From assembly GCA_003868215.1 (NCBI GenBank), contig QWDQ01000075.1, forward strand, positions 1-64,000: DNA of 64,000 nucleotides, given 5' to 3'. Source of the stretch: Pseudophaeomoniella oleicola. Lineage: Eukaryota > Ascomycota > Eurotiomycetes > Phaeomoniellales > Phaeomoniellaceae. A program made the translations under genes and the position numbers. Positions 26,505 to 60,675 of this stretch are shown here, piece by piece. The number at the start of each line of letters is the position of its first letter. Within the stretch, counting starts at the first letter, position 1. The notes under the pieces were generated by a model. The model ran no database searches. It saw nothing but the letters and a program-made list of their open reading frames with translations, and had not been told where the DNA came from.

Positions 26505-29500
26505 TTATGAATTTACATTGCAGATCGGGCAGACCACCTCCTGACGTTCTTCCTCTCGTCCGGAGTTGCCACTGCCATCGCCACCATTCATGTGCGATTT
26601 TGCATCTTCCTCCTCTCGTCTTTGCTGCAGACAGCCTTGATGATATAGGTGTCGGCAAGCAAAGACCATGACAGCGCTGAGCTCCATGTCATTTCCATGT
26701 GAGGATCCTGAGGCTGCATCCTCGTCGTCCTCGTCTGAGCCGTCATCGATAGCTTTGCCTTTCCCGCGCGATACTTCATCCACTTTGATTTTCTCTTGTC
26801 GCCGTCGGAGATCCCGCGCCTGTTTCTTTTGCCATGCTGTCCAAATTTGACCTCCCGATCCAGGTCCCCATACTCGTCGACGACAAATTTCGCAAGTCTG
26901 GCTCCGCGGTCTCCAGCCTTGTTGTCGCAGCTTCGATACCTCATCGACGTGCACGAACAGGTCCTTGTTCAGCATCTCGCTAGCCAGGAAAAGTAAGGAC
27001 TCTTCATACGCATATGCAGCAAAAATAGAGCTGATCACTGCTCGCAGCTGGGACAGGGAAGGTGACGACGCTACCGCATCGCTCAAGAATCCCCTCAATA
27101 TCCGGAGAAATGACAGATCTGCCCGGTCTTGGGCGCCTTCGCGGGCCGCCGTTGTCGCTGTCAATAATGCTGTGAACACTTGTTGAACCGTAGCTCGCAG
27201 TGCTGTTGTGACGTGCATATAACCGCTGGTGGACTGGCTGTCATCGTTGTCATTGTCTACGGCCTTCTCGGTACTTGGAAGGATGTTTCGAGCGATCTTC
27301 ACCACGGCATTGACCAGATCTAGCCATAGCGTTTCCTCGAACGACAATGCTTGCGGCTCGGCACTTGTCCGCCTATTGGCTCTTGCTTTTGTCTTCGGCA
27401 TCATGTTTGTCTGTCGCTGACACAGCCAAATGCCGACTTTCGCGTACTTGTCCAAGGATTCAAGCAAGTCTCCAATAGCCTCGTCTGTGTTATCAACATC
27501 TGGGCTTTCTTCCAGTGTCTTCATGATACCTGTCAGAGCAGCCTCTAAGGTCTCGAGGTGCCTCTTGAGCCTTTCCATTGCACCTTTGACCTGACCTTGG
27601 CGAACCAGTAAGATCACTGCAGCATCAATGATACCAGATGATTCAAGGGCTGGAAGGATTTGTTTAAGATCAAGATCAGAAGTTCGCAGTTTATCGACGT
27701 ACTCCCGGACGTGCTTCGGATTGTACTGGCACATCAGTTGGACATAACGTTCTGTCAAACGAATGTCCGCTTTTGAGTGCATAGTGAAAGTCGTCTCATC
27801 AGGCTCGAAAAGGGAGCGCAAATATTCGAACTGCCCTTGTGGATCATCGTCCAAAGTCTCCAAGAAGTGTGCGTGTAGTTGAGGAAGTACATGGTCAATG
27901 GTCAGTGCTGTCCTTGGAATGCTAATATAGAGAAGGTCATCGGCATGCTCTTCAACCGTTGCTTCAACTTCCCGTCGTTGCCTGTCTGTGAGTCCCGGTT
28001 CAGATCCCGAGGATAACAGTGCCAACAATGTGTCGAAGACGCCTTCCTCATCCTCACGGTCTTTAAAGTACGTCTCGACGAGTTGCGAATACTGACGTTC
28101 GCTCTTGAAAACATACTTCAGGACCCTGTAGAAGTTCGCTCCTTCGAATGTGGGGACCAGCGACTGTAGGTCTGGGGGGTGATATACGGATAAGAGATAT
28201 TCCACGCTTAATTGACATTCCTCGGCCAAATCTTCAGATGGAAAGTGGCATAAGCGGACGAGAACTTGATGCAGAGTAGTCCCCGACAATAAAATATACT
28301 GAGGATACTTGGGTAAATTCCTCGCTAGAAACATGTCAAGAAATATGGTGTCCTCGGGGTCGAAATCAGGCGGAGTCATTACTTCAAGTAGGATAGAGAC
28401 AATGAATTGTCGGTTGATTGCTTTATTGTAGACAACGCCGTGGTCTTTTGAATGTGCTCCAGCACCACTAGACAATTGCTCAGATGCGTCGTTCAAGAAC
28501 GTGTCCTCGAAGGCCTCATTCAACACGCTCATGAAATCAGCTGCGTCGAGCGAAAGTATAGACTTCAAATGTGGAAACGACGAAGCTTTCGATGTGTAGT
28601 TCGGCTGTTCTGCCTTCGCGGGTAAGGTACGGAGCTCAGAACGCGGTCTTCCTGAGAAGAGGAAAGTATAAACCTGCGCCTTAGCTTTGATAGATATGTC
28701 ATCTGGCATAGCAAATCCGCCTGGATATTGGCGACCTGTCAGAATAAATGACAGGTACGGAAAGCATTTTAGTGCGGTAGTTTTCCGCTGAACAGTCATG
28801 TCATCGTGTCCATTTGCTTGAGGGATCTCGGCCATTGACAACAGCTCTTGGAGCGGTCCGACAAAATCATCCAGTGTCTTGGTCCATACGTGGATGTACG
28901 CATCGTAGAGACTATTTCTCTTGCAAAGAGTCGTCACCTGGTCAATGTCCATGCTCGAGGTATCCAGAAGACATATAATGTCTTCTAGATCGGATACAGT
29001 ATGATTCGTCAAGTAGTGTTCGATCAGGGCCTTGACTGCAGGAGGGGGGAGGGCCCTCACTTCTCCAGAAATGATATATGGTTCGAGGGTATCAAGGAAG
29101 ACCGATGTCATATCGTGTTCCTCGTACCATGTAAACACTTCTTCGAAAAGGAAGTCCCTATCATTCAAGCTAATACAAGCGGATATGCACACACCTGCCA
29201 ACTCCGCGAGTTGTGGTTTCTCCAACTGCTCTGGTTCTGCTTGCTGATTACGCCCAAAGGCGTACCGCAAGGAGGCCGATATCATCTCCACTAGTTTCGG
29301 ACGGACGACATCGTGTCGTGAGTCCTCGTCTTCAGGTAGCCCTATTGTGATCTTCTCCCCATTCCCGAGATAGTAATCCGTCGCGAGACGTAATGCTGCG
29401 ATAAAATCGCCACGCTCCATTAGAGCCAGCAGCCGGTCTGCCCAATTGGACAAACTACCAATAGAAATGTCATTGAAGCCTAGGAGAAATAGTCTCCCTT

Positions 29501-31286
29501 TGTAGGCACGGAAACTCATGTAGAATGCATCTGCAACGACTCCGTGCATGGAAGTGTCTTCCTCATCCAGTTGTTCAACAACAGCGTGTAGTTGCTGGGA
29601 GAAGAGGTCCGTATGGTAGATATTCTTCTGCAAGAGATCGAACGAGTCTGTCACGCGCATCGACTGGTCTTCTAATATGAAGAGCTGTTGAGTGACGGTG
29701 AGGACAGCCAACACTGACCGGCTCAGCCACTGTACAGCTACGATGGCTTCATCTGCGGTCCAACGAGATCTCGTCTCAAACTGAAACTCCGGAGGCTTAT
29801 CTCTTCCAGCGGGTTCAGATGGTTCAACCTCATCCACATCTAGGATCGTCAGGACGTTAGACCAGCAATAAACGAGTTTGGTCCTTGACATATCCGACTC
29901 TTGGCCTTTGAGCTTGATAGCAGGAAACCAAGCAAGTGCAGCACTCATGACGCCATGAGCTCTGACCTCCTTTGGTCTTGCAGCTTTATGCTGAGTCTGT
30001 GCTATGGGCGTGGTGGAAACAATCACGAGGAGATACGGTGTCATCATTGCCACCAGCCCTACTCCGTCAGAGGCTTGCTCGATGTTTCCCAATGGCAATG
30101 GGGAAAAGGCGAGGACAGAACTAGGCTTGCGAGGTCTGGAATCTCTTTGAATGAGGTCTGGGTAACGTCCGAGAATCCTAGTCGTTTTCATTGCTCGGGC
30201 GACGGATCCAAGCCCACGGGTTGCGAGATGAGAGAATGCCATGCCACGTTCATCCGCTGAGACAAGTGCAGTACGGCGAGCACCCAGAAAACCGAGATGC
30301 AGGATCGAAGCACCAGGTACGTGACCGTCAGAGGTCCGCGCTTGCCCTTGATGATGTTCCACCGGGGGAATGTGTAAGAATGGCCGCGCAGCCCTAGCTA
30401 TCTCCCATGTAAAAATATGACCACTAGTGTGGCCAGAAGCCACGGTACTGTGGTCTGCTGAAACAGCGAGTGCAACGACCGCACCACATTCTACTGCTTG
30501 TGTACCTGGTCCAATGATGGCTTTGTGTACCTGTTGGTAATCAAAGACAAGGACTATCCCCTTCGAGGTCCCGATTATGATGTTCGTAGATATTGCAACA
30601 CACGTTGGTCGACCGAAATTTCTCTTTCCTATCTCTGAAAATGCTTGCCCTGTCACTTTTCGAAGCTTTGTCCACCGAATCACTTCCCACGGCGCGGAAG
30701 TCGGTTCTGGTTCAAGCTCAGCTGAACCCGGAAACGCGACGCTAGCTATTGATGATTGTCTTGAGTGGTTGCCGAGGAAGGCTGGCGAAGATGCTCGTGG
30801 TGAGCTCAAGGGGGAAGACGAAAGCCGCGACTGAAAGCGCCGGTCGAATGGGCGGTGGGTGCCACTGGGGCTTCTACCGTAGGAAGGGCTTCGATACAGT
30901 AGCGCATCGCTTCGAGAGATGGACAACAGGGAACCCTTCTGATGTTAGTCATGGGATGAATGGCCAAAGGCATATGCGCACACCTGTATAGAAGGCGTAT
31001 CATCTGGTATTTCTGAGTTACTGCCGTCGAAGCTGGGAGAGTCGTTGACCGCATGCAGCGGTGGTGTTCTCGGTGCCTGCGTAAGTGATGGAGGCCTTTC
31101 ATCTTGCTGCGAGTTTCGTAAAGGACTTGATCTTCCTTCATCTTCATCTTCAAGCTCTAGTGCGTCATCAGAGGTGCCAAATCTATCATGCTCTCCTAAT
31201 GTCCTCTCCAGGTCATCTCTAGTACCGCCCAAACCTATAGCATCCTCCCGGGCAACATCTTCACCCTCCGTTGACTGCGTACTCAT
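26505..31286 (-). CDS. VPS8: Vps8, CORVET tethering complex subunit (1578 aa, 2 exons)
   Basis: Transcribed leftwards. Exon 1 is 30984-31286 and exon 2 is 26505-30938, with a 45-base intron in phase 0. The first 170 residues are acidic and Ser-rich. Then comes a beta-propeller region: RRNFGRPTCVAI-like start at about residue 200, GTSKGIVLVFDYQQ, and SADHSTVASGHTSGHIFTW. A long alpha-solenoid with clathrin-heavy-chain-like repeats follows. The C terminus has a RING-H2-type finger: CEICRRRVWGPG at about residue 1450, CRHLYHQGCL, and CPICNVNS as the last residues. This architecture is diagnostic for Vps8, the CORVET-specific subunit that binds Rab5/Vps21 on early endosomes and tethers vesicles on the way to the vacuole. 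Length is close to other filamentous-fungal Vps8 proteins. An acidic loop (GSDEDDEDAASGSS) sits inside the RING. Confidence 0.95.
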
Positions 31287-37131: not shown

Positions 37132-39606
37132 GCAAAAATTGACAGGAGACTACCGGTGCGCCAAAAGTTGTGGATTAGTTTATGGACGCGGCGTGCAAGT
37201 TGTAATGCATCGGGTTGTGGGCAGTCTCGGAGCTGGATAGGGTCTAGGGGAGAACGACCATCAATGAGATGTGAAGCGCCCAAGCTGTGAATAGTACAAA
37301 TTGAGTAGTCTAAACCAATGACGATGTGATCTGAGGATTCAGATGTAGCGGAATTCAAGTGATGTGTCGGAAGACCGCTTCGCAAGACGGTGCAGACTGG
37401 TGTGTCTAGGTGGGAATATCACGGGAGGAAATGAGGCGCGGTGAAGGGAGATGCGTTATGGGAACTAAGAGGGTGAATGAGGGTGGAGGCAACTTGAAGG
37501 AGATTTCGAGCTATGCGGATGGCTTGGCAAGACAGTAAGCGCACCAGATGGTGAGTGTCGCTCTTTGGGACAGAAGAATCGTGGGGGAGTTCACCAAAGA
37601 CGGCGGGAGTATAATATAAAAAGGAAGAAGGAAAAGAGAAGATGACGGGATGGGGGATGAACTTCAAGTCAAGTGGAATTCTGGAAGGAATGACAACGCG
37701 GCGGATGGTAGTCCGGGCGTCCGACCCAAGAGAGGCGTGAAAAAAGGGAAAAGTGGTTTGGTTTGATTTGATCTTGATTTGGGGATGGGCCGAGTACGTA
37801 GTATATGGGATAGGATTAAAATGAACAAAGTGGACTACGGGTATCAAGATGGCGCCGTGTGGGAAGGATACGCCGGAAGAAGGCAGCCAGGGACATGTTA
37901 GGTAAATAAGAATAAGTGTAGATGATGACTACCGATTATATGGGCTCGACTCTTGTCATGTTACTACTTCGGCTGTAAGGTTCAGGTATAAGTTATACTC
38001 CTAGTATGTTAGTATGTAGTACTACTACCATCATCAGCGTATAGACTTCCCCATCTGTCATATATGCCTGAACAAAGCTCGTCTCTCTTTGTGTGAATGC
38101 GCCTTCACGAATCGGATCGAACGAAGTCGCGGGTAGGGAAAAATCTTTTGTCCTCCCTTGCTCCCCAATCAACGTTGAGATGTTGCATATCAAACGTGGG
38201 AAAAAGCGGCATCGGTGGTTCAATTTATATTATCTAACCAGGGAGGGGAGGGTCGTCTAAGGTTACGTCGACCGGGCTATTGTGACACATCATCACGTAG
38301 CGTCGCCAGTGGGATTATAGTCAACGTCCCAAGGGACCCAAGGATCGGGAGGATTCTGACAGCAGAGACAGCGATGGAAATCTCTTATATCTCAGGGTAT
38401 GGGAAGAGGTGCGATGACAGGGCACGAAAAGAAAGAAGAGGAAGAAAGGAAGGTCCAGGGTCCCTAGTCCCGGGTTTAGCCCTGCCTTGGCCCTTAGGAA
38501 ACCGCCATTCCACCTCATGGAGCACCAAAGCGGCAACCTTCCAACATCAACTCGTCGTTAGACGCACATATCATCCTGAGCCTTCACACGGACCTTGAAT
38601 CAGTCCAGATAATTCTGGCTATAGAATAACTCTCACTTGATCAGCGGCTCGATCAAATTTTATGATAAAAGATGCAGATCACATGCGACGTTCCCTCCTG
38701 TATTGCATCACTCGGGACAGACGGACAGAGACTGTATAGTCGGTAATAAGATACGTATACCCTTCTGGCTACTCTGATGACACCAAAAGGCAAAATCGTG
38801 AGAGATGTAGTTATATTTCCTCCCCGTCTCGCCTTGTGAATTGCAGTGCGAAGAAATTCCGGTGGGTGAAGTGCGATGAATGAGATGAGGGAGGCTGCGC
38901 GTGTGATGGGACATGATCCATTTAGAGTACTTGGATTCATGCCTAGTGAATTAGCCGCTTCCGAAACTCCTTGTCTTTGAACTTCAGCTCAACCAAAGGA
39001 TGTCAATCAGCTTCACAACAACCATATAATGGAGATTTCTACTTAACCACATGGGATCTTTTTAGACGACAGTCGTCCCGTCTTTCTTTCCTAATTGTAT
39101 TACTTAGGGTTGTATCGGTGACCCCGAACTGGGTACAGATCAACAGTTCTGCTTTTCATATCCAGCAGCCAAAACTGTCCCAGATGAATATTATTCGATT
39201 ACTGTATATCGCAACTAACGATTGGTTACCATATCAGGTATTGACTCGTGTAAGTTGTTGTGGCTATTCACAGTTCAGACCTGCGATAATTACTAGGCCG
39301 ACGAGGAAGTTTGGGTTGCGGTCTCACAAGCTTTCCCATTGCTTCCTAATCGGGTACTAGTCGGAAATCTTTGTTGCATCTTATTCCTCGCGTCCACCGA
39401 TGGCCTACAACTAAGCAGGCTGCCAACGCTCCTACCACTGACGCGACAAGACTTAGGAGGTGATGGATTTGAGAGAATCAAAATCATCTCCTCAAGCTCT
39501 AGGCATTCGTCATCTTTTTGATCTCGAAAATGATGATCATACATTGTAACAAGTCACCAGGTAATGTGGACTGCTCGCTTGAGACCAGCCTGATGCTGTG
39601 CCCGTC
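37132..39606. other. Divergent intergenic region, SNT2 and helicase genes
   Basis: About 2.5 kb between divergent starts. It contains the SNT2 promoter on the left, a GTACGTAGTA element at 37794-37803, and only short frames without domains. On the right, a short frame from 39463 (MDLRESKSSPQALGIRHLFD) could be a 5' exon of the helicase gene, but I found no splice pair that joins it in frame convincingly. Confidence 0.45.
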
Positions 39607-42369
39607 ATGGGCAGCCTCCCTTACCAGCCGATTCGTATTGCGGGACACGAGACCAGCGTTGATCTTGTACGAAAGCAGCAACATGCATATAGCCTCACCC
39701 ATTATGCTGGCCAAAAACGCTCTCATGCAGATTTCCTTGGAGATGCAATTCCTGATGCCGAAGCAGTGCGCCAAGACTTTGAGAGCCGGGATGATATCCC
39801 CAAGAACACATTGACAGCTAGCAAGATTATTGATATTACGACCCCTGCGCCTCAGCAAGCCATCGAAGGGACCGGGCCTGAAAAGGTACAGAGTCTGACG
39901 CAAGATCCTTTGCTATCTCTAGCTCATCCAAACTACCGACTACCTGGAAAACTTGTTTCCAATTTTGCCTCCCTCGGTATAAGATTCATATATGACTGGC
40001 AAAAACGGTGTTTGACACAACGTGGCCTCCTGGATGGTAGGGATAGCCTCATTTATACAGCTCCCACTGGCGGCGGCAAGAGTCTTGTCGCGGATGTTCT
40101 TCTGCTAAAGAAAGTCATCGAGCAACCAAGGAAAAAGGCCATAGTGGTATTACCATACGTGGCCCTTGTCCAAGAGAAACTGCGCTCGTATCGAAGTCTA
40201 GTGGAAGGGGTAGTAAAGCCAACGGAACCGCTTTGCGATATACCCCAACCTTCATGGCAGCAACCTCATACTTCCTCCATTCGGGTCGCCGGTTTCTTTG
40301 GTGGTAGTAGATCGTCATCCAAGCTCGCTGATGTCGATATAGCCGTCTGCACCATAGAGAAAGCCAACGCCTTGGTCAACACTGCAATAGAGGAGGGCAA
40401 TGTTGGTGACATCGGAGCTGTTGTAGTTGATGAATTCCACATGATTGATGATGAGCATCGAGGATATCTCATCGAATTAATGATTACAAAGCTGCTATGT
40501 CTGCAATCAGACTTCGATAGAATCCAGCTGATCGGGATGAGCGCCACTCTTTCAGACGTTCCGCTGATAGCTAGATGGATGCATGCTAAATATTACGTTT
40601 CGAAGCACCGACCAGTCCCAGTACACGAGTTCCTTGTCTACGATTCTGGCTTATATCCCACTGCTGATTCGAAAGAATTTTTCCGTACAGCAAGCCAACT
40701 CGGTTCTCCTTTCAAAACTCAGAAGCCACCGCAACCAACTAGAACAGTGCAGAAATCGTCCCATAAAGAACTCGACAATCCGCTTACCAACGCCGTCGTA
40801 GCGCTAGCGGTCGAAACCGCTTCCGCCGGCTATGGAGCTCTCGTCTTCTGTTCGAGTCGCCAGAACACCCAGAACATGGCGCTGTTGATAAGTAAAGCCC
40901 TACCTTGTCATACGCATAGTCAAAACATACTAGACAAACGACTAGAGGTTATTGCCGCTCTGCAAGCTCTTCCTGGAGGTTTCGAACAGAGTCTTAAGGA
41001 AACTGTTATTAGAGGAGTGGCGTTTCATAATGCTGGCTTGACAACCGAGGAACGGGAAATCGTCACCGAAGCTTACGACCGGAGTATTCTAAAGGTCATG
41101 GTAGCCACATGTAGTCTTGCTGCGGGTTGCAATCTACCGGCGCGGAGGGTGATCCTGAACGGAGCTAGGATGGGCCGAGAACTCATTGGCCCTGCTATGC
41201 TTCGACAAATGAGAGGAAGAGCGGGTAGAAAAGGGAAAGACGAGGTTGGCGAAGCCTATATTTGCTGTCAAAAGGCAGATCTGGAAGCTGTGGCTGAGGT
41301 TCTGGAAGCCGACCTTCCGGCATTGACAAGTTGCCTGACTCCGGAAAAGCGTGGCATGACCAGGGCATTGCTGGAAGTCATTGCAACTCGCCTTGCAATG
41401 ACATGGCCATCTGTCGAAGACTACGTCCGGAAGTCACTGTTATTTCAGATCATGGATTCCACTGAAGTCTCGAAGATGTTGAAAGTGACTATTGATGAAC
41501 TCATCAACACAGGCCTCGTCAAAGTCACAGATGACGTTTCATATGAAGCTACGCGCCTAGGGCAAGCGATCGTTGCGTCCTCCCTCGGACCTACAGAAGG
41601 TATCTTCGTTCACGATGACCTTCAACGAGCTCTGAAGTCATTGGTCATGGATGGAGAGCTTCATGTCTTCTATCTCTTCTCACCAATCCAGATAGCGGGT
41701 CTAGCAGACATCCCGTGGACCATCTTTCGGGAACAGATGGAGATGCTTGACGAGAGCGGCATGCGTACCCTCCATGCAATTGGCGTAAGCCCTGCATTAG
41801 TAAATCGGCTGGCACAAGGAGCAATCCTGAAAGAGGAGACACAAGAGGAGATCAACAGAGCCCGCATTCACCGCAGGATGTTCTCTGCCTTTCAGCTTCG
41901 TGACCTCTGCAACGAGGTGCCGATTCACGAGATTAGCTTACGTTACCAAGTCCCCCGGGGTTTTGTCCAAAATCTTGCTCAGACTTGTCAGGGTTTCGCA
42001 GCAGGAATGATCAAATTTTGTGATCGCATGGGATGGGGTATGTTGGCTGCGGTATTGGAACATATGGTCGATCGTCTTCGTGCAGGCGCGAAGGCCGATC
42101 TCCTTGAAATGGCTACAGTGCCATTTGTGAAGAGTCGCATGGCACGTGTCTTGTATGATAACGGCCTAAAAAGCCTTCGGGCATTATCTGAAGCAGACCC
42201 TAGTGACCTGGTTCCCATCATGATAGAGGCCCAAGGTCGTAGTAGAGGGCGTTTGCAAGGAGAAGCGGCTGAGAAACTGAGAGCGAAACTGTTGTCCAAA
42301 GCCGAGATCATTGTCTCTAGCGCCAATCGAATTTGGGAAAAGCAACAACTAATAGAACTTGAGGAATAA
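39607..42369 (+). CDS. HELQ/Mus301-type DNA repair helicase (about 920 aa)
   Basis: Superfamily 2 Ski2-like helicase matching the HELQ/POLQ helicase family. Motif I is TAPTGGGKS (residue about 151), followed by VVVDEFHMIDDE (motif II, DEFH, about 273), GMSATLSDVPLIARW (motif III), FHNAGLTTEERE (motif V region), and LRQMRGRAGRKGKDEVGEAY (motif VI). The winged-helix and ratchet part follows, with an HhH-like end (FVKSRMARVLYDNGLKSLRALSEAD). There is no polymerase domain, so it is the HELQ (Neurospora Mus-301) form rather than full POLQ. Role: 3'-5' unwinding at stalled forks and in interstrand-crosslink and double-strand-break repair. The frame is open back to 39583. ATG 39607 is the first in-frame ATG, but an upstream exon ending in a junction at about 39583-39588 cannot be excluded, so the start is uncertain. 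No other intron seen. Confidence 0.92.
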   Translation: MGSLPYQPIRIAGHETSVDLVRKQQHAYSLTHYAGQKRSHADFLGDAIPDAEAVRQDFESRDDIPKNTLTASKIIDITTPAPQQAIEGTGPEKVQSLTQDPLLSLAHPNYRLPGKLVSNFASLGIRFIYDWQKRCLTQRGLLDGRDSLIYTAPTGGGKSLVADVLLLKKVIEQPRKKAIVVLPYVALVQEKLRSYRSLVEGVVKPTEPLCDIPQPSWQQPHTSSIRVAGFFGGSRSSSKLADVDIAVCTIEKANALVNTAIEEGNVGDIGAVVVDEFHMIDDEHRGYLIELMITKLLCLQSDFDRIQLIGMSATLSDVPLIARWMHAKYYVSKHRPVPVHEFLVYDSGLYPTADSKEFFRTASQLGSPFKTQKPPQPTRTVQKSSHKELDNPLTNAVVALAVETASAGYGALVFCSSRQNTQNMALLISKALPCHTHSQNILDKRLEVIAALQALPGGFEQSLKETVIRGVAFHNAGLTTEEREIVTEAYDRSILKVMVATCSLAAGCNLPARRVILNGARMGRELIGPAMLRQMRGRAGRKGKDEVGEAYICCQKADLEAVAEVLEADLPALTSCLTPEKRGMTRALLEVIATRLAMTWPSVEDYVRKSLLFQIMDSTEVSKMLKVTIDELINTGLVKVTDDVSYEATRLGQAIVASSLGPTEGIFVHDDLQRALKSLVMDGELHVFYLFSPIQIAGLADIPWTIFREQMEMLDESGMRTLHAIGVSPALVNRLAQGAILKEETQEEINRARIHRRMFSAFQLRDLCNEVPIHEISLRYQVPRGFVQNLAQTCQGFAAGMIKFCDRMGWGMLAAVLEHMVDRLRAGAKADLLEMATVPFVKSRMARVLYDNGLKSLRALSEADPSDLVPIMIEAQGRSRGRLQGEAAEKLRAKLLSKAEIIVSSANRIWEKQQLIELEE

Positions 42370-43953: not shown

Positions 43954-44691
43954 ATGGCTCCCAAGATCGCTATCGTCTTTTACTCCATGTATGGTCACAT
44001 CAAGGCCATGGCAGAAGCCGAGAAGAAGGGTATTGAGGCTGCCGGCGGTTCCGTTGACATCTACCAGTAAGTCTCCCACGTACATGAGCAGCGAGATATA
44101 TCACTTTGTGAATGTTCCTTACATTACCCCTCCGTCGATTGTTCCCTTTACCCGTTGGTGTTGCTATGGCTGGTGCTGATCAACTATCTTCACAGAGTCG
44201 CTGAGACCCTTCCCAAAGAGGTCCTCGAGAAGATGTACGCCCCACCAAAGTCCGAGTACCCCGTCATCACACCCGCCGAACTCACCCAATACGATGGTGT
44301 CCTCTTCGGTATCCCAACCAGATACGGCAACTTCCCAGCCCAACTGAAGGCCTTCTTCGACGCAGCTGGTCAGGTCTGGGCCAGTGGTGCCTGGTACGGC
44401 AAGTTCGTCGGTTGCTTCGTCTCCACTGCCAGTCCCGGTGGTGGTCAGGAATCCACCTTCATGTCGGCCATGTCCAGTTTCGTCCACCAGGGCATGATGT
44501 TCGTGCCACTGGGCTACGCCAAGAGCTTCGGTCAGCTCACCAACCTCAGCGAGGTCCACGGTGGATCTCCGTGGGGTGCTGGTACATTTGCCGGTGGTGA
44601 TGGCAGCCGCCAGCCATCTGCTTTGGAACTCGAGGTTGCCGAAATCCAGGGCAAGAGTTTCTACGAGCATGTCGCCAAGTACCACTCTTGA
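43954..44691 (+). CDS. WrbA-family flavodoxin NAD(P)H:quinone reductase (202 aa, 2 exons)
   Basis: Exons: 43954-44066 and 44196-44691. The product starts [20 protein letters not shown], where [10 protein letters not shown] is the FMN phosphate-binding loop. [20 protein letters not shown] and the downstream [20 protein letters not shown] are WrbA signatures. The family (yeast Pst2/Rfs1/Ycp4, S. pombe Obr1, Alternaria allergen Alt a 7) reduces quinones by two electrons with NAD(P)H and protects from oxidative stress. The usual short form is about 200 residues, as here, ending EHVAKYHS. The stop codon is TGA followed immediately by CTA, and the frame continues for 65 codons to a CaaX box, so a longer readthrough product is likely (next entry). 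A TATA box lies at 43837. A long minus-strand open frame over exon 2 is a shadow caused by biased codon use. Confidence 0.96.
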
Positions 44692-44889
44692 CTACACTCG
44701 GGCCCCGAGGAAAATAAAGAACAGGAACCGGTCACCGCAGCGGCCAATGGGAATACTGCGACAGAAGCCACGCCTGGCGTGAAGGAGTCGAAAGATACAA
44801 AGAAGGAAACTAGCTCTGCTCCTGCTGCTACAAGTGATGAACCCAGTAGCGGGCCTTGCGGATTGCCGAAGAAATGTGTCATTTTATAG
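44692..44889 (+). CDS. Probable readthrough extension of the quinone reductase with CaaX box
   Basis: Directly after the TGA (44689-44691) the same frame is open for 65 codons to TAG at 44887-44889. The bases after the stop are CTA, giving TGA CTA, the motif known to promote ribosomal readthrough in fungi and animals. The extension is hydrophilic (Glu, Lys, Thr, Ala) like a tether. It ends GPCGLPKKCVIL: a C-terminal Cys-Val-Ile-Leu CaaX box with a preceding Lys-Lys pair and a second Cys nine residues upstream of the end that could be palmitoylated. Leu at the end favours geranylgeranylation. The readthrough product would have 268 residues. A weaker alternative is a 54-base in-frame intron (44671-44724) that removes the stop, but its GTCGCC donor is poor. 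Longer membrane-linked members of this family, such as yeast Ycp4, are known as separate genes. Confidence 0.7.
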   Translation, partial: LHSGPEENKEQEPVTAAANGNTATEATPGVKESKDTKKETSSAPAATSDEPSSGPCGLPKKCVIL

Positions 44890-46293
44890 CGCTGCGTATG
44901 AGACGGTCGACGTGGAGGCCAGTTTCTTGCGTTTCACAGACTAGATACACACCCCTACAGTTTTAATGAAAACAGTCAAATCTGATTTTGAAGTTGTGAG
45001 TTACCGAGGAATCATAATTGCATAATGCCCAGTGAAGCCCACTATAATTATATCACTGTTGTACGCATCCAATGTTCCCAGAGGATTCTATCCTCCGATT
45101 GCCTGCGCACCATACCGGCCATGCAGTATACCCAAGTGGCGATAGACATGGAAGATCTTTGAGTTCGCTGGAAAGAAATGTCAGGGTAGAGAGCATGCCC
45201 TTCAAGATCCTACATATTATTCGCAATTCTGCAATGTCTCTTTCTGGGCTGAATGGTATCGGGTGCCGAGTCCACGTCGAGAGCCCATCCAAGGTGCCGA
45301 CTCAGGCTGCCGGCTCATATTAGAGATCGTCATGGAACAGTGGCGGCCTCCCATCATTGAGGTAGAGAGTCTTAAACTTGGTATTTTCATTAGTATGACA
45401 GTCCCAAGGACAATTATGTTTCTTTTTGGAGTATGTTTGTGTTTCTTGAACCCAGTCGCAGGAAACTGCGGCAGTCACCTTAACAGAGACAGCGACGAAC
45501 AGTTGACCTAGAGGAACACTGTCGAGAGAATATCCATCCTGGCCGCTCCTTTTGAACACTGCATAAAGCAGTGTACTCGACGTTGTTGGCTTCAACGAAG
45601 TGTCTAACGTCTGCAGTGCAGTGAACCTGCATTATATGTTAAAGTGAATTAGTCTGCACAATTGCGAGCCAACGACGGGTGCTACAGGCAGATACCGCAT
45701 CTCGGCGGCGCAGCTGAGATATAGACCGCTAACGTAAAGTCTTCGTCAATGCAGATACATCAAGAGCGCCTAGATGCGTGAGAAAGCTTGTATATTGAAG
45801 AGCAAACGTGATCACATATGAATACATGTGTATCGCCGACGCTGGTAGCTGGTGATATTTGGACGGGTCGTCGTAGATGAATGGCGGCGCAGGGCAAAAT
45901 ATGGTTTAGTGGAGAAAGAACATCACGCAGCATCAGAGCCCACGTCTGATCATACGTCGAGACTCGACATATCGGTCGATATCAACGAAACGTCCCATCT
46001 TGCCATCTTGACAAAACCGTGTCTTGCACAAGTCTCTATCGCTCAATGGAGCGATAACAATTCTAGATCGAGACGTGCAATTGAAGATAGCGCTTATTGG
46101 AAGTACCACAAAGAGGGGATGGACTGAGCAGAAGGTACCTATCTCGAGGCTATATACACACCTTCTTCCAATACTGACGCTCGATCCTAGACCAAATACA
46201 GATTTATCATTCTCGTCCATGCCCTCTAACCATACATTCGCCATCCGGACCCGTTGCTGAAGGATAGAGAAGTCATATACTAAAAAGGTGGCC
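44890..46293. other. Intergenic, flavodoxin gene to LSD1-like gene
   Basis: Short frames only, none with recognisable domains. It contains the 3' flank of the flavodoxin gene and the promoter and leader of the amine-oxidase gene. No repeat or RNA gene noticed. Confidence 0.5.
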
Positions 46294-49200
46294 ATGGCTC
46301 CGATGGCCCAAACCGTATATACCCAAGAGTCTGAAGTGATGAGCAAAGACCATTATCCAAATATACTAAAATCAATACCAGCCTTCGCCCTCTCCGCTTC
46401 TATGGGTGGTACTGACACTATTTCGATGGAAAGTGCAGCGTTGGCGTCCAACAAGAATCAGGATGTCGAAATGCAGGACTCCATCACTGTGGACTCAATG
46501 GTCAAAGCAGAAGAGGATGATGATACATCAAGTCGTGCAAGCCTCCTGCATAGCTTGAGAACCGATGAAGAGAATCGAGATTCACCAAACAGCTCAACCA
46601 CGTCACTGTCGTTGATGACCCCTGTGAACGGTATAAAATCGACGTCCATATCAGCCTCTCCTGCAAAGCCCAGCCTATTCCACGAGACATCCTCTCCATA
46701 TTCCAGACCCGGAGCCTTCGTCAGATTTCATGCCAAATCATCAATACCTGCACGCCTCCCCCCGGCCGAGTATGCCCGACAATGTGCAGCCGCAGCCGAA
46801 GCCTCCCGATTGAATCCGTATGCTTTACATCCAGATGAGCACAGGCTGTTGAAAGATAAGCTCTGTCATCTTCATGTCACTGTGTATTTGAACATAAGAA
46901 ACGGAATACTACGGCTATGGGTTCGCAACCCGAACGTCAGCGTCTCCATTGAAGAAGCCATTGGGTGTGCTAAAGATGACCGATGGACACAGTTGGCATG
47001 CTTCGCGTATGAGTGGCTTGTCCGCAAGGGGTATATCAATTTTGGCTGCGTCGACATTCCGGCCGCCGTCAAGTCTGCCAAAAATCGTCGTAAAGACGTT
47101 GGGCCTACAATTGTTGTCATAGGTGCTGGCATGGCCGGCTTGAGTTGTGGAAGGCAATTGACAAGCATATTCAAACACTATCCCGATACGGCGCCTCCAA
47201 AGGTCATCGTACTTGAAGGTCGCAACAGGATAGGAGGGAGGATCTATTCTCATCCACTTTCCTCTTTGAAATCGAAAACGCTCGACCGCCATCAGAGGCC
47301 GATAGCCGAAATGGGCGCTCATATAATTGTTGGATTTGAACACGGAAACCCGCTTGACTCTATTATTAGAGGCCAATTAGCTCTGAAGTATCATTCTTTG
47401 CGGGACCTGTCGACTCTTTATGACATCGATGGATCGGCGGTTAACGAGCAACAGGATCTGATGTGCGAAAGGCTCTATAACGACATACTCGATCGTACAG
47501 GGGACTATAGATGGAAATCAGAAGTACAAAAGACTGCCGAGGGAGAGAAGGACATGATGGAAATGGGGCGCGATCCGCCATATAGTGATGATGGCTTCAC
47601 CATCAATCAGGTTGAGTTGGCGGCAGCCATGGGGACAATCGATCGCTTGCTGCCCACCAAGTCGAGACGGAAAGGCGCAGGTCATAAAGCACCCAAATCC
47701 GACAAGCCTACCGAAAGTATTGCCGGCAATACGGACAGTCAGATACACCTTCCTGCCGTTCAAGCTGCGAAGAAGATCGGCTTTGCGGTCAAGGATGGCG
47801 TCAGGTCAGACGCGTCATTAGAGCTCGATGCGCTGGCTGCGAATCCCCATCAGACTCTCGGCGCGACATTGGATGCAGGCGTAAAACAGTATCACGACAT
47901 GCTTGACTTCAAAACAAAGGCATTCAGATTGCTCAATTGGCATTATGCAAATCTGGAGTATGCCAACGCAACAAACGTTGAGAGATTGAGCTTAGCTGGA
48001 TGGGATCAAGACATGGGCAACGAGTTCGAGGGGGAACACTCCCAGGTCGTTGGAGGATATCAACAGCTTCCGCGTGGCTTGTGGCGATACCCAGAGAAAC
48101 TCGACGTCCGCACGGACAAAGCTGTCGCCAACATCAAGTACGATGCAGCAAATCCCGAGTCCGGAAAGGCATATGTAACGTGCAAAGATGGCGAAGTCAT
48201 CGAAGCCGACAGGATTGTTTTGAGCGCTCCGCTTGGTGTCTTGAAGCAGCAATCAATAACTTTTGACCCACCTTTGCCAGACTGGAAGCAGGGAGCAATC
48301 TCCCGGCTTGGCTTCGGCTTGCTTAACAAATTGATTCTCGTCTTTGATAAACCTTTTTGGGATGCAAGTCGAGACATGTTTGGATTATTACGCGAGCCTT
48401 TGCGCGGAACTGATGGTATGCGACAAGAACATTATCGGGCCAATCGAGGCAAGTTCTACCTCTTTTGGAATTGTTTAGATACAAGTGGACTGCCTGTGTT
48501 GATCGCCCTTATTGCTGGGGATGCTGCGCACGAGGCAGAACAAACACCAGATCAAGTTCTTATTCAGGAATGCGTCGGTCAACTGCGTCGAGTCTTCGGG
48601 CATCACAAGGTACCCGACCCGCTAGAGACCATTGTTACACGCTGGAAGTCTGATGAATTTGCCCGAGGGAGCTACTCATACGTCGCCGCGGGGTCTGAAC
48701 CTGAGGACTACGACTTGATGGCCAAGAACTTGGGTAACCTGTACTTTGCTGGAGAGGCGACCTGCGGTACTCATCCTGCTACCGTGCATGGAGCTTACCT
48801 CTCTGGAATCCGTGCGGCTTCTGAGGTGGTGGATTCCATAATTGGTCCTGTTGAGCTTACCGGTCCTATAATCTCTCCGCCGTCAGGCATGACAACGTCT
48901 CGTAAGATCATGGAAGAGACAGCAGTAGTCCCACAAAAGCGCCGTGGAGATGAGGTCTTGCCTACGGGAACGCTTACACGTCCAGCTAAAGAGACGCAGT
49001 CTGGAGTACAACAAGCTTACGATACAGCCATGTGGGATTACATCTACTCCGTCATCGGATTTGCTCCTGCTAAGCCTGCCAAGTCTGGCATCAATCCTTT
49101 CTTGCTATACCAGAAAGATCACTGGGCAGATGTCAAAGAGCGATGTGACAAACAAAAACAAGCAACTTCTAAGAGCAAGAATCCTGCGACAGCAAGGGCG

Positions 49201-49467
49201 TCGCGAGATGAGATCCGAATCGCCCTGGGCGCAATGTGGCGCGATCTTAATGAAGAGGGCAGGCAGCCGTATGTTGAGGAGACTAAGAGAAACAAAGAAG
49301 ACAACGAAAAGGCTATCAAAGAGTGGGAGACTCAGGCCAAGGAATGGGACAAGAAAACATGGGAGGTTAAAGAGGAGTGGGAGCAAAAGGTTGGAGGTTT
49401 CGAGCAGTGGAAAGCAGAGTGGGAACGAAGTGGAAAGAAGATGAAGCCGATGATATTCCATCCGTGA
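46294..49467 (+). CDS. LSD1: LSD1/KDM1-like histone demethylase with HMG box (1057 aa, single exon)
   Basis: Single-exon gene with the first in-frame ATG at 46294 (later ATGs at 46303 and 46339 are possible starts). Layout: disordered head of about 150 residues, then a SWIRM domain (PPAEYARQCAAAAEASRLNP to FAYEWLVRKGYINFGCVDIP, about 150-255). The FAD-binding fold VVIGAGMAGLSCGRQL lies at about 272, with VLEGRNRIGGRIYSH. An amine-oxidase domain in two halves is separated by an insert (about 410-500), ending YFAGEATCGTHPATVHGAYL near 835. The C-terminal HMG-box (PAKSGINPFLLYQKDHWADV ... GAMWRDLNEEGRQPYVEE) lies at about 927-1005, followed by a Lys/Glu/Trp coiled tail. SWIRM plus amine oxidase identifies LSD1, which demethylates histone H3. 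The HMG box is the usual arrangement in filamentous fungi (HdmA-like) and S. pombe Lsd1/2. Nuclear. Confidence 0.95.
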   Translation: MAPMAQTVYTQESEVMSKDHYPNILKSIPAFALSASMGGTDTISMESAALASNKNQDVEMQDSITVDSMVKAEEDDDTSSRASLLHSLRTDEENRDSPNSSTTSLSLMTPVNGIKSTSISASPAKPSLFHETSSPYSRPGAFVRFHAKSSIPARLPPAEYARQCAAAAEASRLNPYALHPDEHRLLKDKLCHLHVTVYLNIRNGILRLWVRNPNVSVSIEEAIGCAKDDRWTQLACFAYEWLVRKGYINFGCVDIPAAVKSAKNRRKDVGPTIVVIGAGMAGLSCGRQLTSIFKHYPDTAPPKVIVLEGRNRIGGRIYSHPLSSLKSKTLDRHQRPIAEMGAHIIVGFEHGNPLDSIIRGQLALKYHSLRDLSTLYDIDGSAVNEQQDLMCERLYNDILDRTGDYRWKSEVQKTAEGEKDMMEMGRDPPYSDDGFTINQVELAAAMGTIDRLLPTKSRRKGAGHKAPKSDKPTESIAGNTDSQIHLPAVQAAKKIGFAVKDGVRSDASLELDALAANPHQTLGATLDAGVKQYHDMLDFKTKAFRLLNWHYANLEYANATNVERLSLAGWDQDMGNEFEGEHSQVVGGYQQLPRGLWRYPEKLDVRTDKAVANIKYDAANPESGKAYVTCKDGEVIEADRIVLSAPLGVLKQQSITFDPPLPDWKQGAISRLGFGLLNKLILVFDKPFWDASRDMFGLLREPLRGTDGMRQEHYRANRGKFYLFWNCLDTSGLPVLIALIAGDAAHEAEQTPDQVLIQECVGQLRRVFGHHKVPDPLETIVTRWKSDEFARGSYSYVAAGSEPEDYDLMAKNLGNLYFAGEATCGTHPATVHGAYLSGIRAASEVVDSIIGPVELTGPIISPPSGMTTSRKIMEETAVVPQKRRGDEVLPTGTLTRPAKETQSGVQQAYDTAMWDYIYSVIGFAPAKPAKSGINPFLLYQKDHWADVKERCDKQKQATSKSKNPATARASRDEIRIALGAMWRDLNEEGRQPYVEETKRNKEDNEKAIKEWETQAKEWDKKTWEVKEEWEQKVGGFEQWKAEWERSGKKMKPMIFHP

Positions 49468-56638: not shown

Positions 56639-58395
56639 ATGCGGATCATCACACTCGTCACCACCGTAAGTCTCTTTGTAGCTGCCACCTATTCACAGTC
56701 GTCGGGCACGACGACGACTCCATACGTGCCCACAGGAACACCTGTTTCAGGAAACTACAATGGCCGTCTTCGACCTCAAGTCCATTTCAGCCCACCCCAA
56801 GGGTTCATGAATGATCCGAATGGTATGTTCCGTGACGAGGATGGATTGTGGCATCTCTACTACCAATGTATGTCTGCTGGCTGCCGAGCTGGCATATCCG
56901 CCACTGATCATGTCCAGACAACCCCACGGCTACTGTTGCTGGAAATCAGCATTGGGGCCATGCTACTTCTACCGACCTCTATCACTGGGAGAACCAACCT
57001 ATCGCCCTCTTTCCACCAAATCCAACGACCTATGTCTTCTCTGGTTCCGCTGTTGTCGATTCGAACAATACATCTGGCTTCTTCCCGAATCAGACCAATG
57101 GAGTCGTGGCTGTATACACGCTATCCGGGACCGTCCAAGATCAGAATATCGCCTATTCATTCGATGGCGGCTACACGTTTACCCCATACCTTTCCAACCC
57201 TGTCATTGATATTAATTCCACACAGTTTCGCGATCCCAAGGTTATATGGCATGCGCCGACCTCAAAATGGGTAATGGTCATCTCTTACGCCAGCGAGTTC
57301 ACCATCGGCGTGTATACTTCACCCAATCTACGTGAATGGACCCATGCTTCCAATTTCTCTCATGCTGGACTGCTCGGCTTACAATATGAATGTCCCAATC
57401 TTGTCGAGATGCCCATGTATGCTTCTCAGGACGATCCAAAGCCATCCACAACGATGCATGTGCTGGCGATATCCATTAACCCTGGTGCGCCTCTTGGAGG
57501 TTCCATCACTCAATACTTCCCTGGACACTTCAACGGCACACACTTTACGGCGGTGGATGGTGCTACACGCTTGACAGACTTCGCTAAAGACAACTATGCC
57601 GGGCAATTCTTCTATGGCATTCCTGGTCACGAGCCACAGGTCTTCATAGGCTGGGCGAGCAATTGGCAATATTCCGAAGTGGTTCCTACTGGATATCTTG
57701 AAGGATGGCGCTCATCCATGAGTCTTCCCCGGATCACATATCTTGCAAATACAACGCGAACAGGGTATGACTTGATCACGAAGCCGTATCCTATGGATTC
57801 GATCTTGATTGATCCGCCACTCGCACACAACCCCTCCCTGGGAAACGGCACCGTTCTCGTGGATCTTTCGTCGGATATCCTTCATTCCAACGCCTTCTAC
57901 TTCGATATCAACATTACATCCATCAACACCTCAGCTCCAGCAGGCGTCATCAACGTTACTCTCGTCTCCTCTGCATCAGGAGAAACGATCTCTCTGGGTC
58001 AGCTTCCGCTTGGCTCTGACCTCTTCTTTAACCGTGGAAACACCTATGGCTTCGACAACGTCTTCTATACAGACAAGTTTTCTGTCACCAATCTCATAGA
58101 CCCATCTCAAGGTCCGACCACTGATTACAGGCTCGAAGGCGTGTTCGATCGATCTCTGTTCGAAGTCTTTTGTAACGGTGGGAAACAGGCAGGTACAATC
58201 AGCGTGTTCCCGGAGCAGACAATGGACACTTTGATCATCAAGACAAGTGATATGAATGACGCTGTAGGGGTCAGTGTAGAAGTACGTGGTTTGATGAGTG
58301 CTTGGAAGCAGTTTGAAAATGCAGACGGCGTGGTGAGTGGGAACGCAACGACGCAGGCTGTAAGGAGGGATAGAATTGGGCACTTAGGACCATGA
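56639..58395 (+). CDS. Secreted GH32 invertase/exo-inulinase-type enzyme (568 aa, 2 exons)
   Basis: Exons: 56639-56867 and 56918-58395, with a 50-base intron. The start [20 protein letters not shown] is a signal peptide. The GH32 signatures are complete: [14 protein letters not shown] with the nucleophile Asp (about residue 60), FRDPKVIWH with the RDP transition-state Asp (about residue 200), and YECPNLVEM with the acid/base Glu in ECP (about residue 255). The C-terminal beta-sandwich domain follows, including [20 protein letters not shown], the typical DxSxxEVF block. Several N-x-T/S sites fit a secreted glycoprotein. The enzyme hydrolyses terminal beta-fructosides of sucrose, inulin or levan outside the cell. 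Sequence alone does not separate invertase from exo-inulinase. Sugar utilisation, often linked to plant-associated life. Confidence 0.95.
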
Positions 58396-59112: not shown

Positions 59113-60675
59113 ATGGCAACGGCTGCTTCTCAGATATCAGAGACGACTGCCCTCCTTCCTGGCCGAAGGGCTAGTCTTTCACGCTTCAGCACGCGGTCAG
59201 AGAGTGGAGTCGCTGGTCTCGAAGCAGCCCTGAGGGCTCCAGACCGAGACGCAACAACATGGCGACGGGAGGCTACCCTGTTGACGAGATACTCGTGGCC
59301 CCTGATTCTGACGTACGCTCTGCAGTATTCTTTCAGTCTGACTGCGGTCCTGGTGATTGGACATTTGGGCACTAAGGAGCTGGGCGCTATTTCTCTTACT
59401 ACGTAAGTCGACAAACCCCCTCATGTTTGACCACAGTGTGGAAAGACAGGGACAGACCATGTGCTGACGAGATCTAGTATGACGGCCAATATCACCGGTC
59501 TGAGCGTGTACGAAGGCCTAGCTACGAGTCTCGATACGCTCTGTGCTCAAGCCTATGGTTCCGGACGAAAGGAAGTCGTCGGTCTTCATCTTCAGCGCAT
59601 GGTACTCTTTCTCTGGCTCGTTTCCGTCCTCATCATGGCACTCTGGTTCTCGGCCCACTGGTTCCTGCCATACATCGTCCCCGAACGGGAGGTGGCTCTG
59701 CTCGCTGCACGCGGTCTTCGGTACTGGATGATCGGAGCTCCCGGTTTCGCCACCTTCGAGGCCGGGAAACGGTTCACCCAGGCCCAGGGCCTATTCAACG
59801 CGAGCTTCTACGTCCTCCTCATCGTCGCGCCGTTCAACGCCCTTCTCTGCTACATCCTCGTCTTCCGCCTCCACCTCGGCTTCGAGGGCGCCATCCTCGG
59901 GCTCTCCATCTCTAACAACCTCCTTCCGGTCCTGCTCCTCTTCTACGTGCTCGTCATCAACCGTTCCTCGCTCCAATGCTGGCCCGGATTCACCCGCGCA
60001 GCCTTCCACCACTGGGGCCCCATGCTCAAGCTCTCTCTCCCGGGCGTCCTGATGGTGGAATCTGAATGGCTCGCGTTCGACATCCTGACCTTTGCCAGCT
60101 CGTTCATCAGCGCCGACGCTCTCGCCGCCCAATCCGTGCTCATGACGACCTCAAACCTGATCTACAACATCCCCTTCCCCGTCTCCGTCGCCGTCAGCAC
60201 ACGCATCGGCAACCTAATCGGCCGCTCCGCCCTCTCCGCCACCCGCACCGCCTTATTCACCCACCTCACCATCTTCACGCTCCTCGGCCTCCTCGACCTC
60301 ATCCTCCTCCTCTTACTCCGCCACACTCTCCCCCTCGCCTTCACCTCCGACCCGGCCGTAATCACACTCGTCGCCTCCGTCATGCCCATCGTCGCCGCCT
60401 TCCAACTCTTCGACTCAACCACCTCGCTCGCCAACGGCGTGCTGCGCGGCCTCGGTCGCCAATCCGTCGGCGGCGCCGCCAACCTCGCCGTCTACTACGT
60501 CTTCTGTCTCCCCTGCGCTCTTTTCCTCGCGTTCGGGTCCCCCCGCCTCGGTCTCTGGGGTCTTTGGATCGGTCCCGCGTGCGGGCTCGCGCTGTTGAGT
60601 TTGTTCGAGGGGTTGTATATTTTACGGTGTGATTGGAAAAAATGCGTCGATGATGCGAAGGGGAGGGAGGAGTGA
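59113..60675 (+). CDS. MATE-family multidrug efflux transporter (495 aa, 2 exons)
   Basis: Exons: 59113-59402 and 59478-60675. The join gives GAISLTTMTANITGLSVYEG, the second helix of the family. After a Ser-rich cytosolic head of about 50 residues, about 12 membrane helices are visible. Signatures include GLATSLDTLCAQAYGSG in the N-lobe, FEAGKRFTQAQGLFNASFYV, the cytosolic-gate region IPFPVSVAVSTRIGNLIG, and NGVLRGLGRQSVGGAANL in the C-lobe. Fungal MATE proteins (yeast Erc1 type) export drugs or metabolites by proton antiport at the vacuole or plasma membrane. Exon 2 is unusually C-rich at third codon positions compared with the neighbours, which creates long false frames on both strands at 59790-60730. 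The protein ends in a Lys/Asp/Glu tail. The substrate cannot be inferred. Confidence 0.94.

Follow-up and report, generated by a model that had tools for sequence, protein, structure and literature searches.

Does the quinone reductase gene at this locus make one protein or two? Its reading frame ends at a TGA directly followed by CTA, beyond which the frame stays open. The window, i.e. the whole stretch of 64,000 nucleotides that was analysed, is part of a fungal assembly of 26.1 Mb in 112 contigs, and the gene, with a single intron, occupies positions 43954-44691 and ends TGA CTA. A preliminary description of the DNA had placed this stop context at the end of a WrbA-type gene, which is where we find it, and had proposed two products, of 202 and 268 residues; both are given by the spliced model, the longer with one residue placed at the TGA. 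The features of the locus, all on the + strand, are the following:

43954..44066, + strand: exon 1 of the WrbA/Pst2-type quinone reductase, with the ATG at 43954 (spliced model, homologues)
44067..44195, + strand: intron 1 (GTAAGT ... TTCACAG), the removal of which restores the conserved protein
44196..44691, + strand: exon 2 to the first stop; the spliced short form has 202 amino acids
44689..44694, + strand: first stop and UGA CUA readthrough context (TGA 44689-44691, CTA 44692-44694), read from the sequence; the context suffices in Ustilago maydis (PMC4207609)
44692..44886, + strand: in-frame extension of 65 codons, a flexible tether plus anchor motif without Met (profile match, E=4.9e-9)
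44851..44886, + strand: conserved anchor motif GPCGLPKKCVIL, with the upstream Cys codon at 44857-44859 and the CaaX Cys codon at 44875-44877
44887..44889, + strand: second stop, TAG, which closes the long form at 268 residues, counting the one at the TGA

The short form belongs to the WrbA/Pst2 enzymes, since both the FMN-reductase fold (PF03358, above cut-off at E=1.8e-10 for 44197-44688, in exon 2) and a full-length match to solved members of the family were found, the nearest structure to the 202-residue protein being that of Pst2 (5mp4; E=2.5e-84, residues 3-200). The core enzyme is 72-74% identical to the best named ascomycete relatives. Short forms of relatives are on record as 'Minor allergen Alt a 7' or as 'CAZyme family AA6'; they have the core enzyme in common with the window gene, but the records end at the short stop and leave the tail unconsidered, whereas the window gene carries it. 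A tree of 40 rows places the window protein with two of the homologues, P0031 and P0033 (100/98); the wider set around them, with Sordariomycetes and Leotiomycetes, is weakly supported (78/56). When the best candidates were scored, one WrbA locus was found in the 26.1 Mb assembly, and a pattern for the tail motif matched exactly once in the whole of it; on these two results, a second, always-long gene in the same genome was rejected. Around the locus, the window codes on the + strand for a POLQ-type helicase region (39583-42366), a SWIRM/amine oxidase/HMG-box protein (46261-49464), a GH32 glycosidase (56908-58392) and a MatE transporter (59431-60672), and on the - strand for Vps8 (26508-30944), all assigned by Pfam; the SWIRM/amine oxidase/HMG-box neighbour resembles the histone demethylase LSD1.

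Past the first stop, the frame is open for 65 sense codons, to position 44886, and then meets TAG, in agreement with the preliminary description. The long form ends in GPCGLPKKCVIL directly before this stop, its last residues being KKCVIL, and the second Cys that had been noticed nearby is indeed encoded, at 44857-44859. The terminal CVIL is a C-terminal Cys-aliphatic-aliphatic-X sequence, that is, a CaaX box. Two features of the UGA-CU readthrough class are seen at the stop: a UGA is followed by CU(A), and the in-frame extension behind it is open and carries a conserved functional signal. In Ustilago maydis, UGA CUA alone is enough for efficient readthrough (PMC4207609). Three other means by which the tail might come to be translated, or its translation stimulated, were considered and rejected: RNA structure 3' of the stop, which did not go beyond chance (z 0.11); internal initiation, because no in-frame Met occurs in the tail; and selenocysteine insertion at the UGA, for which fungi lack the machinery (PMC4207609).

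An open frame behind a stop may be accidental. The preliminary description had held that chance would rarely place a CaaX end on an open extension after TGA CTA, and this stands for the combination but not for the open frame as such: an open run of 65 codons is met at 16.6% of 20,000 random positions in the window, and the tail stays open in 4.6% of 20,000 base shuffles, whereas only one of the 4,932 stop-to-stop intervals in the six frames of the window combines at least 65 codons, a strict CaaX end and a preceding TGA CTN, and that interval is the extension itself. Two other long CaaX-ended intervals in the window follow TAA ACT and TAG ACA.

The homologues bear on the same point. We collected 178 distinct homologues, namely the best 120 of 7,184 matches and, with a second query that joined the window protein to 20 long forms and 8 short ones, the best 120 of 6,324. 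Among the 178 listed, whose counts are not to be read as frequencies, 55 contain CGLP and 54 of these end in C-x-x-x (CGLP...C-aaX); GPCGLP is exact in 53 of the CGLP proteins, 75 of the 178 lack CGLP and are short forms, with 195-225 residues, and 48 have other architectures. The conserved CaaX end that the preliminary description had asked for in relatives is thus present at the protein level, and the genera with long forms on record are Penicillium, Aspergillus, Paecilomyces, Sclerotinia, Botrytis, Colletotrichum, Fusarium, Podospora, Pyrenophora, Alternaria, Phyllosticta, Wetmoreana and others. Many of the top-scoring records (P0001 and the mostly dinoflagellate P0002-P0030) measure 388-467 amino acids, about twice the length of the enzyme, and P0001, from Gymnopilus, visibly consists of two tandem WrbA units.

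A profile built from 52 tails of the 55 CGLP proteins finds the extension at E=4.9e-9 among the 1,985 window ORF pieces of at least 20 amino acids; its second match falls on the end of this gene's own core exon (E=1e-4), and the next stands at E=3.7. A protein search with residues 185-268 alone returned 21 candidates, none of them significant. As DNA, the motif GPCGLPxKC was found in one stretch of the viral contigs (L004) and in ten stretches of prokaryote genomes (L009-L018, with one sequence occurring twice, as L013 and L014, at two contig ends of a single MAG); we take these matches as chance, because tblastn with the core against the 11 loci gave nothing better than E=0.04. Judged from these comparisons, the tail is an old part of the quinone reductase protein and not a product of chance, because of the CGLP homologues and of the profile match.

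The position of the first stop is also shared. The last helix holds a conserved K, and many short forms end a few residues past it (VNFA, VSFA, VNHQ, AFSA, YVSGSA); the YHS-stop of the window falls at the same boundary. In two species, Paecilomyces variotii (P0108/P0168) and P. lecythidis (P0123/P0170), the long record, with 245 residues, agrees with the short one over all 203 residues of the latter and departs from it only at that point. Because the ends of the short forms coincide and the Paecilomyces pairs part only there, the boundary between soluble core and anchor is conserved, and a single species can have both forms on record.

Some records from other lineages are informative as to how the boundary is crossed. 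P0169, a JGI protein of 281 amino acids on a contig of 1,349 bases, lies within the Leotiomycete set in the tree (100/97), runs from core to tail without an intron and reads ...NKVNFA-W-LDGSSSEADK...KEGPCGLPSKCAVL-W-DINDF. The first of these Trp residues, W204, is the residue directly after the canonical short form of 203 residues, and the second, W263, comes directly after the CaaX box CAVL, in a place where 54 other CGLP proteins end; Trp residues like these are absent in five relatives with which it was compared, four long and one short. The simplest reading would be that both represent TGA translated as Trp. So read, P0169 would have a TGA at the end of the short form, a Leu codon next to it, an open frame up to the tail and a TGA after the CaaX box. 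It has a third unusual Trp, W13, where 54 of 54 other CGLP proteins have Tyr; this may be a substitution, or another TGA, and in the latter case the record would carry no weight, P0169 being a damaged gene. P0161 (250 amino acids, JGI, on a contig of 1,058 bases) groups with Colletotrichum and Fusarium in the tree and shows an unbroken run from core to CaaX, with no Trp residues of this kind. In Penicillium, a short form ending KVNHQ-stop in P. steckii stands against a long form with KVNHH-TESKPE in P. citrinum; judged from the residues, a CAG TGA CT read as CA/GTGACT (the slash marking the splice junction) would turn the stop itself into a splice donor. The short P0081 and the long P0136 of Penicillium verhagenii lie on equally long contigs and have differing cores; this species, unlike the genome of the window, may have two paralogues. 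The claim of readthrough into a CaaX tail, with which the locus was first brought forward, is upheld in part: the tail is conserved and readthrough is the reading that fits the window best, but 54 of the 178 listed homologues are recorded as a continuous long protein. Long models of this kind, including P0161, point to splicing or an open frame as possible routes to the tail in other lineages.

For the window, we consider it probable that one gene makes a short soluble form and, by UGA CUA readthrough, a minor membrane form. Alternative splicing, in which a weak intron containing the TGA would at times be removed to give the long form and otherwise be retained to give the short one, seems unlikely here, even though PTS1 signals were gained in this way by Aspergillus nidulans PGK and U. 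maydis GAPDH (PMC3798809) and continuous long models occur in other fungi. We scanned for in-frame GT-AG pairs that remove the TGA, with donors at 44560-44689 and introns of 35-250 nt, and 47 such pairs keep the frame. They include the 54-base candidate with a poor donor noted in the preliminary description, at 44671-44724 with the donor GTCGCC, but its removal deletes the conserved VAK. The donors nearest the stop are all poor (GTTGCC, GTTTCT, GTCGCC, GTACCA); those scoring 5 of 6 against GTRNGT sit at 44561-44582, within the enzyme core. A CTRAY branch point is found in 0 of the 47 candidates and is absent from 44620-44850, where a looser branch-like TTGAC, at 44688, overlaps the stop. The Penicillium pairs of short and long forms suggest CA/GTGACT as a donor in that genus, but the base before the TGA in the window is a T, so a donor of this type does not exist here. 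Finally, splicing would leave the stop-free, in-frame passage through the stop as a coincidence, and as one that befell two lineages if the Trp residues of P0169 are TGA.

Two further explanations would do without a long form or without a genuine stop, and codon usage bears on both. With 375 PGK and GAPDH codons from the genome of the window as the reference, a few of which seem to come from an unspliced GAPDH intron, the codon adaptation index is 0.707 for the core, 0.581 for its last 65 codons and 0.352 for the tail, with 0.308-0.381 for the frames of the 3' UTR; not one of 5,000 synonymous recodings of the tail with the codon usage of the core was as low as the tail itself. Codon usage of background type, together with a conserved protein sequence, fits rare translation; taken alone, it would equally fit a tail that is not translated at all. 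The tail might accordingly be a relic, an ancestral part no longer expressed in the window species, which would then make the short form only. We regard this as quite improbable in view of the 65 stop-free codons, given the few shuffles that stay open, of a motif that is intact to its last residue and of a stop that sits in a readthrough context. That the TGA is a sequencing error, or a recent nonsense mutation in an always-long gene, might be thought from the many deposited records of continuous long forms, but is very improbable indeed: codon bias falls past the stop, the stop lies at the boundary where the short forms end (75 of the 178 listed records being short forms of 195-225 residues without CGLP), and CTA follows it.

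Readthrough, the reading we favour, would work as follows. One mRNA would give two proteins. Most ribosomes would terminate at the TGA, and their product would be a soluble NAD(P)H:quinone reductase of 202 residues that depends on flavin; a few would insert an amino acid at the UGA, owing to the CUA that follows, and would go on to translate a flexible tether ending in GPCGLPKKCVIL. The Cys of the CaaX box would be prenylated, X = Leu suggesting geranylgeranyl, and the end would be trimmed and methylated; the upstream Cys would probably be palmitoylated. By this lipidation, a small part of the enzyme would become bound to a membrane. Protein ends that are prenylated and palmitoylated usually have this arrangement of a CaaX Cys, lysines and an upstream Cys. 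Of the enzymes that process CaaX proteins, the genome encodes a farnesyltransferase beta subunit (best match 4l9p, E=1.1e-105), a geranylgeranyltransferase-I beta subunit (best match 1n4p, E=2.6e-18) and ICMT (PF04140, E=2.2e-25). Gene structure, stop context, open frame, protein-level conservation of the tail, the single locus found and the presence of these enzymes are what the data show; readthrough itself, its rate, the lipidation, the membrane location and the function we infer. The gene would then probably supply, besides much soluble quinone reductase, a little that is held at a membrane. As a separate observation, the basidiomycete homologues P0054 and P0061 have an N-terminal extension, MCFP(G/S)K..., with an early Cys and then a stretch that resembles a tether; here a lipid anchor of another kind may sit at the N-terminus of the enzyme.

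A 2012 study by Freitag is reportedly the one that described UGA CUA readthrough giving peroxisomal PTS1 isoforms. The PTS1 isoforms of fungi and animals share with the window gene the stop context and an in-frame extension with a C-terminal targeting signal (PMC4207609); there, one gene serves two locations, as it would in the window, and readthrough and splicing form a mosaic between species, PGK and TPI isoforms arising by readthrough in U. maydis, while GAPDH is spliced in U. maydis and PGK in A. nidulans (PMC3798809 and PMC4973966). They differ in the signal, which is a PTS1 in their case and, as read from the sequence of the window, a CaaX lipid-anchor motif on a 65-codon extension of a quinone reductase; this extension ends in CVIL and not in an SKL-like PTS1. 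The window system would thus work like the readthrough-derived peroxisomal isoforms without belonging to them. PGK and GAPDH in the genome of the window were examined for a PTS1 past their stop codons, and none was found.

That readthrough into a prenylation signal had not been described, as first supposed, does not hold. Readthrough extensions have been screened for prenylation sites (PMC4359377), and for Drosophila Syx17 PMC3840789 gives a readthrough extension with a predicted farnesylation signal, as a prediction only. Syx17 resembles the window gene in this respect; it is an unrelated protein and a single match of a screen, whereas the anchor motif of the window is found in homologues of many genera. 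Among the open-access papers listed by our searches, we found no described case of readthrough to a prenylation signal in fungi or in a WrbA-type enzyme. What would be new is a functional readthrough variant with a lipid anchor in fungi, the prenylation prediction for Syx17 being known. That yeasts devote a separate gene to the anchored form was borne out by Candida albicans, in which flavodoxin-like quinone reductases are reported at the plasma membrane and Ycp4, beside Pst1, Pst2 and Pst3, carries about 90 extra residues at its C-terminus, with a CAAX box as the last four (PMC4556627). Enzyme family and CAAX-ended extension are the same; the anchored form has its own gene in Candida, whereas in the window core and anchor lie at one locus with a stop between them.

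Across species, the tail is probably reached by a mosaic of readthrough and splicing, by analogy with the fungal PTS1 isoforms. More tentatively, and with rather less confidence than we have in readthrough at the window, one ancient gene may make both forms throughout the filamentous ascomycetes, with the stop as a switch that would act through UGA-CU readthrough in some lineages and as a G+TGACT splice donor in others; either the ribosome or the spliceosome could then make use of one and the same hexamer. If this were true, it would be the first conserved readthrough system with a dually lipidated membrane product, within the literature searched. If readthrough at the window is real, it would explain why database entries for the same quinone reductase are found at about 203 and at about 250 residues, and functional readthrough in fungi would extend from peroxisomal targeting to lipid anchoring. 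Redox defence at the membrane, a role of the Ycp4 type, would then be tied to the fidelity of translation, and conditions that raise readthrough would move the enzyme to membranes.
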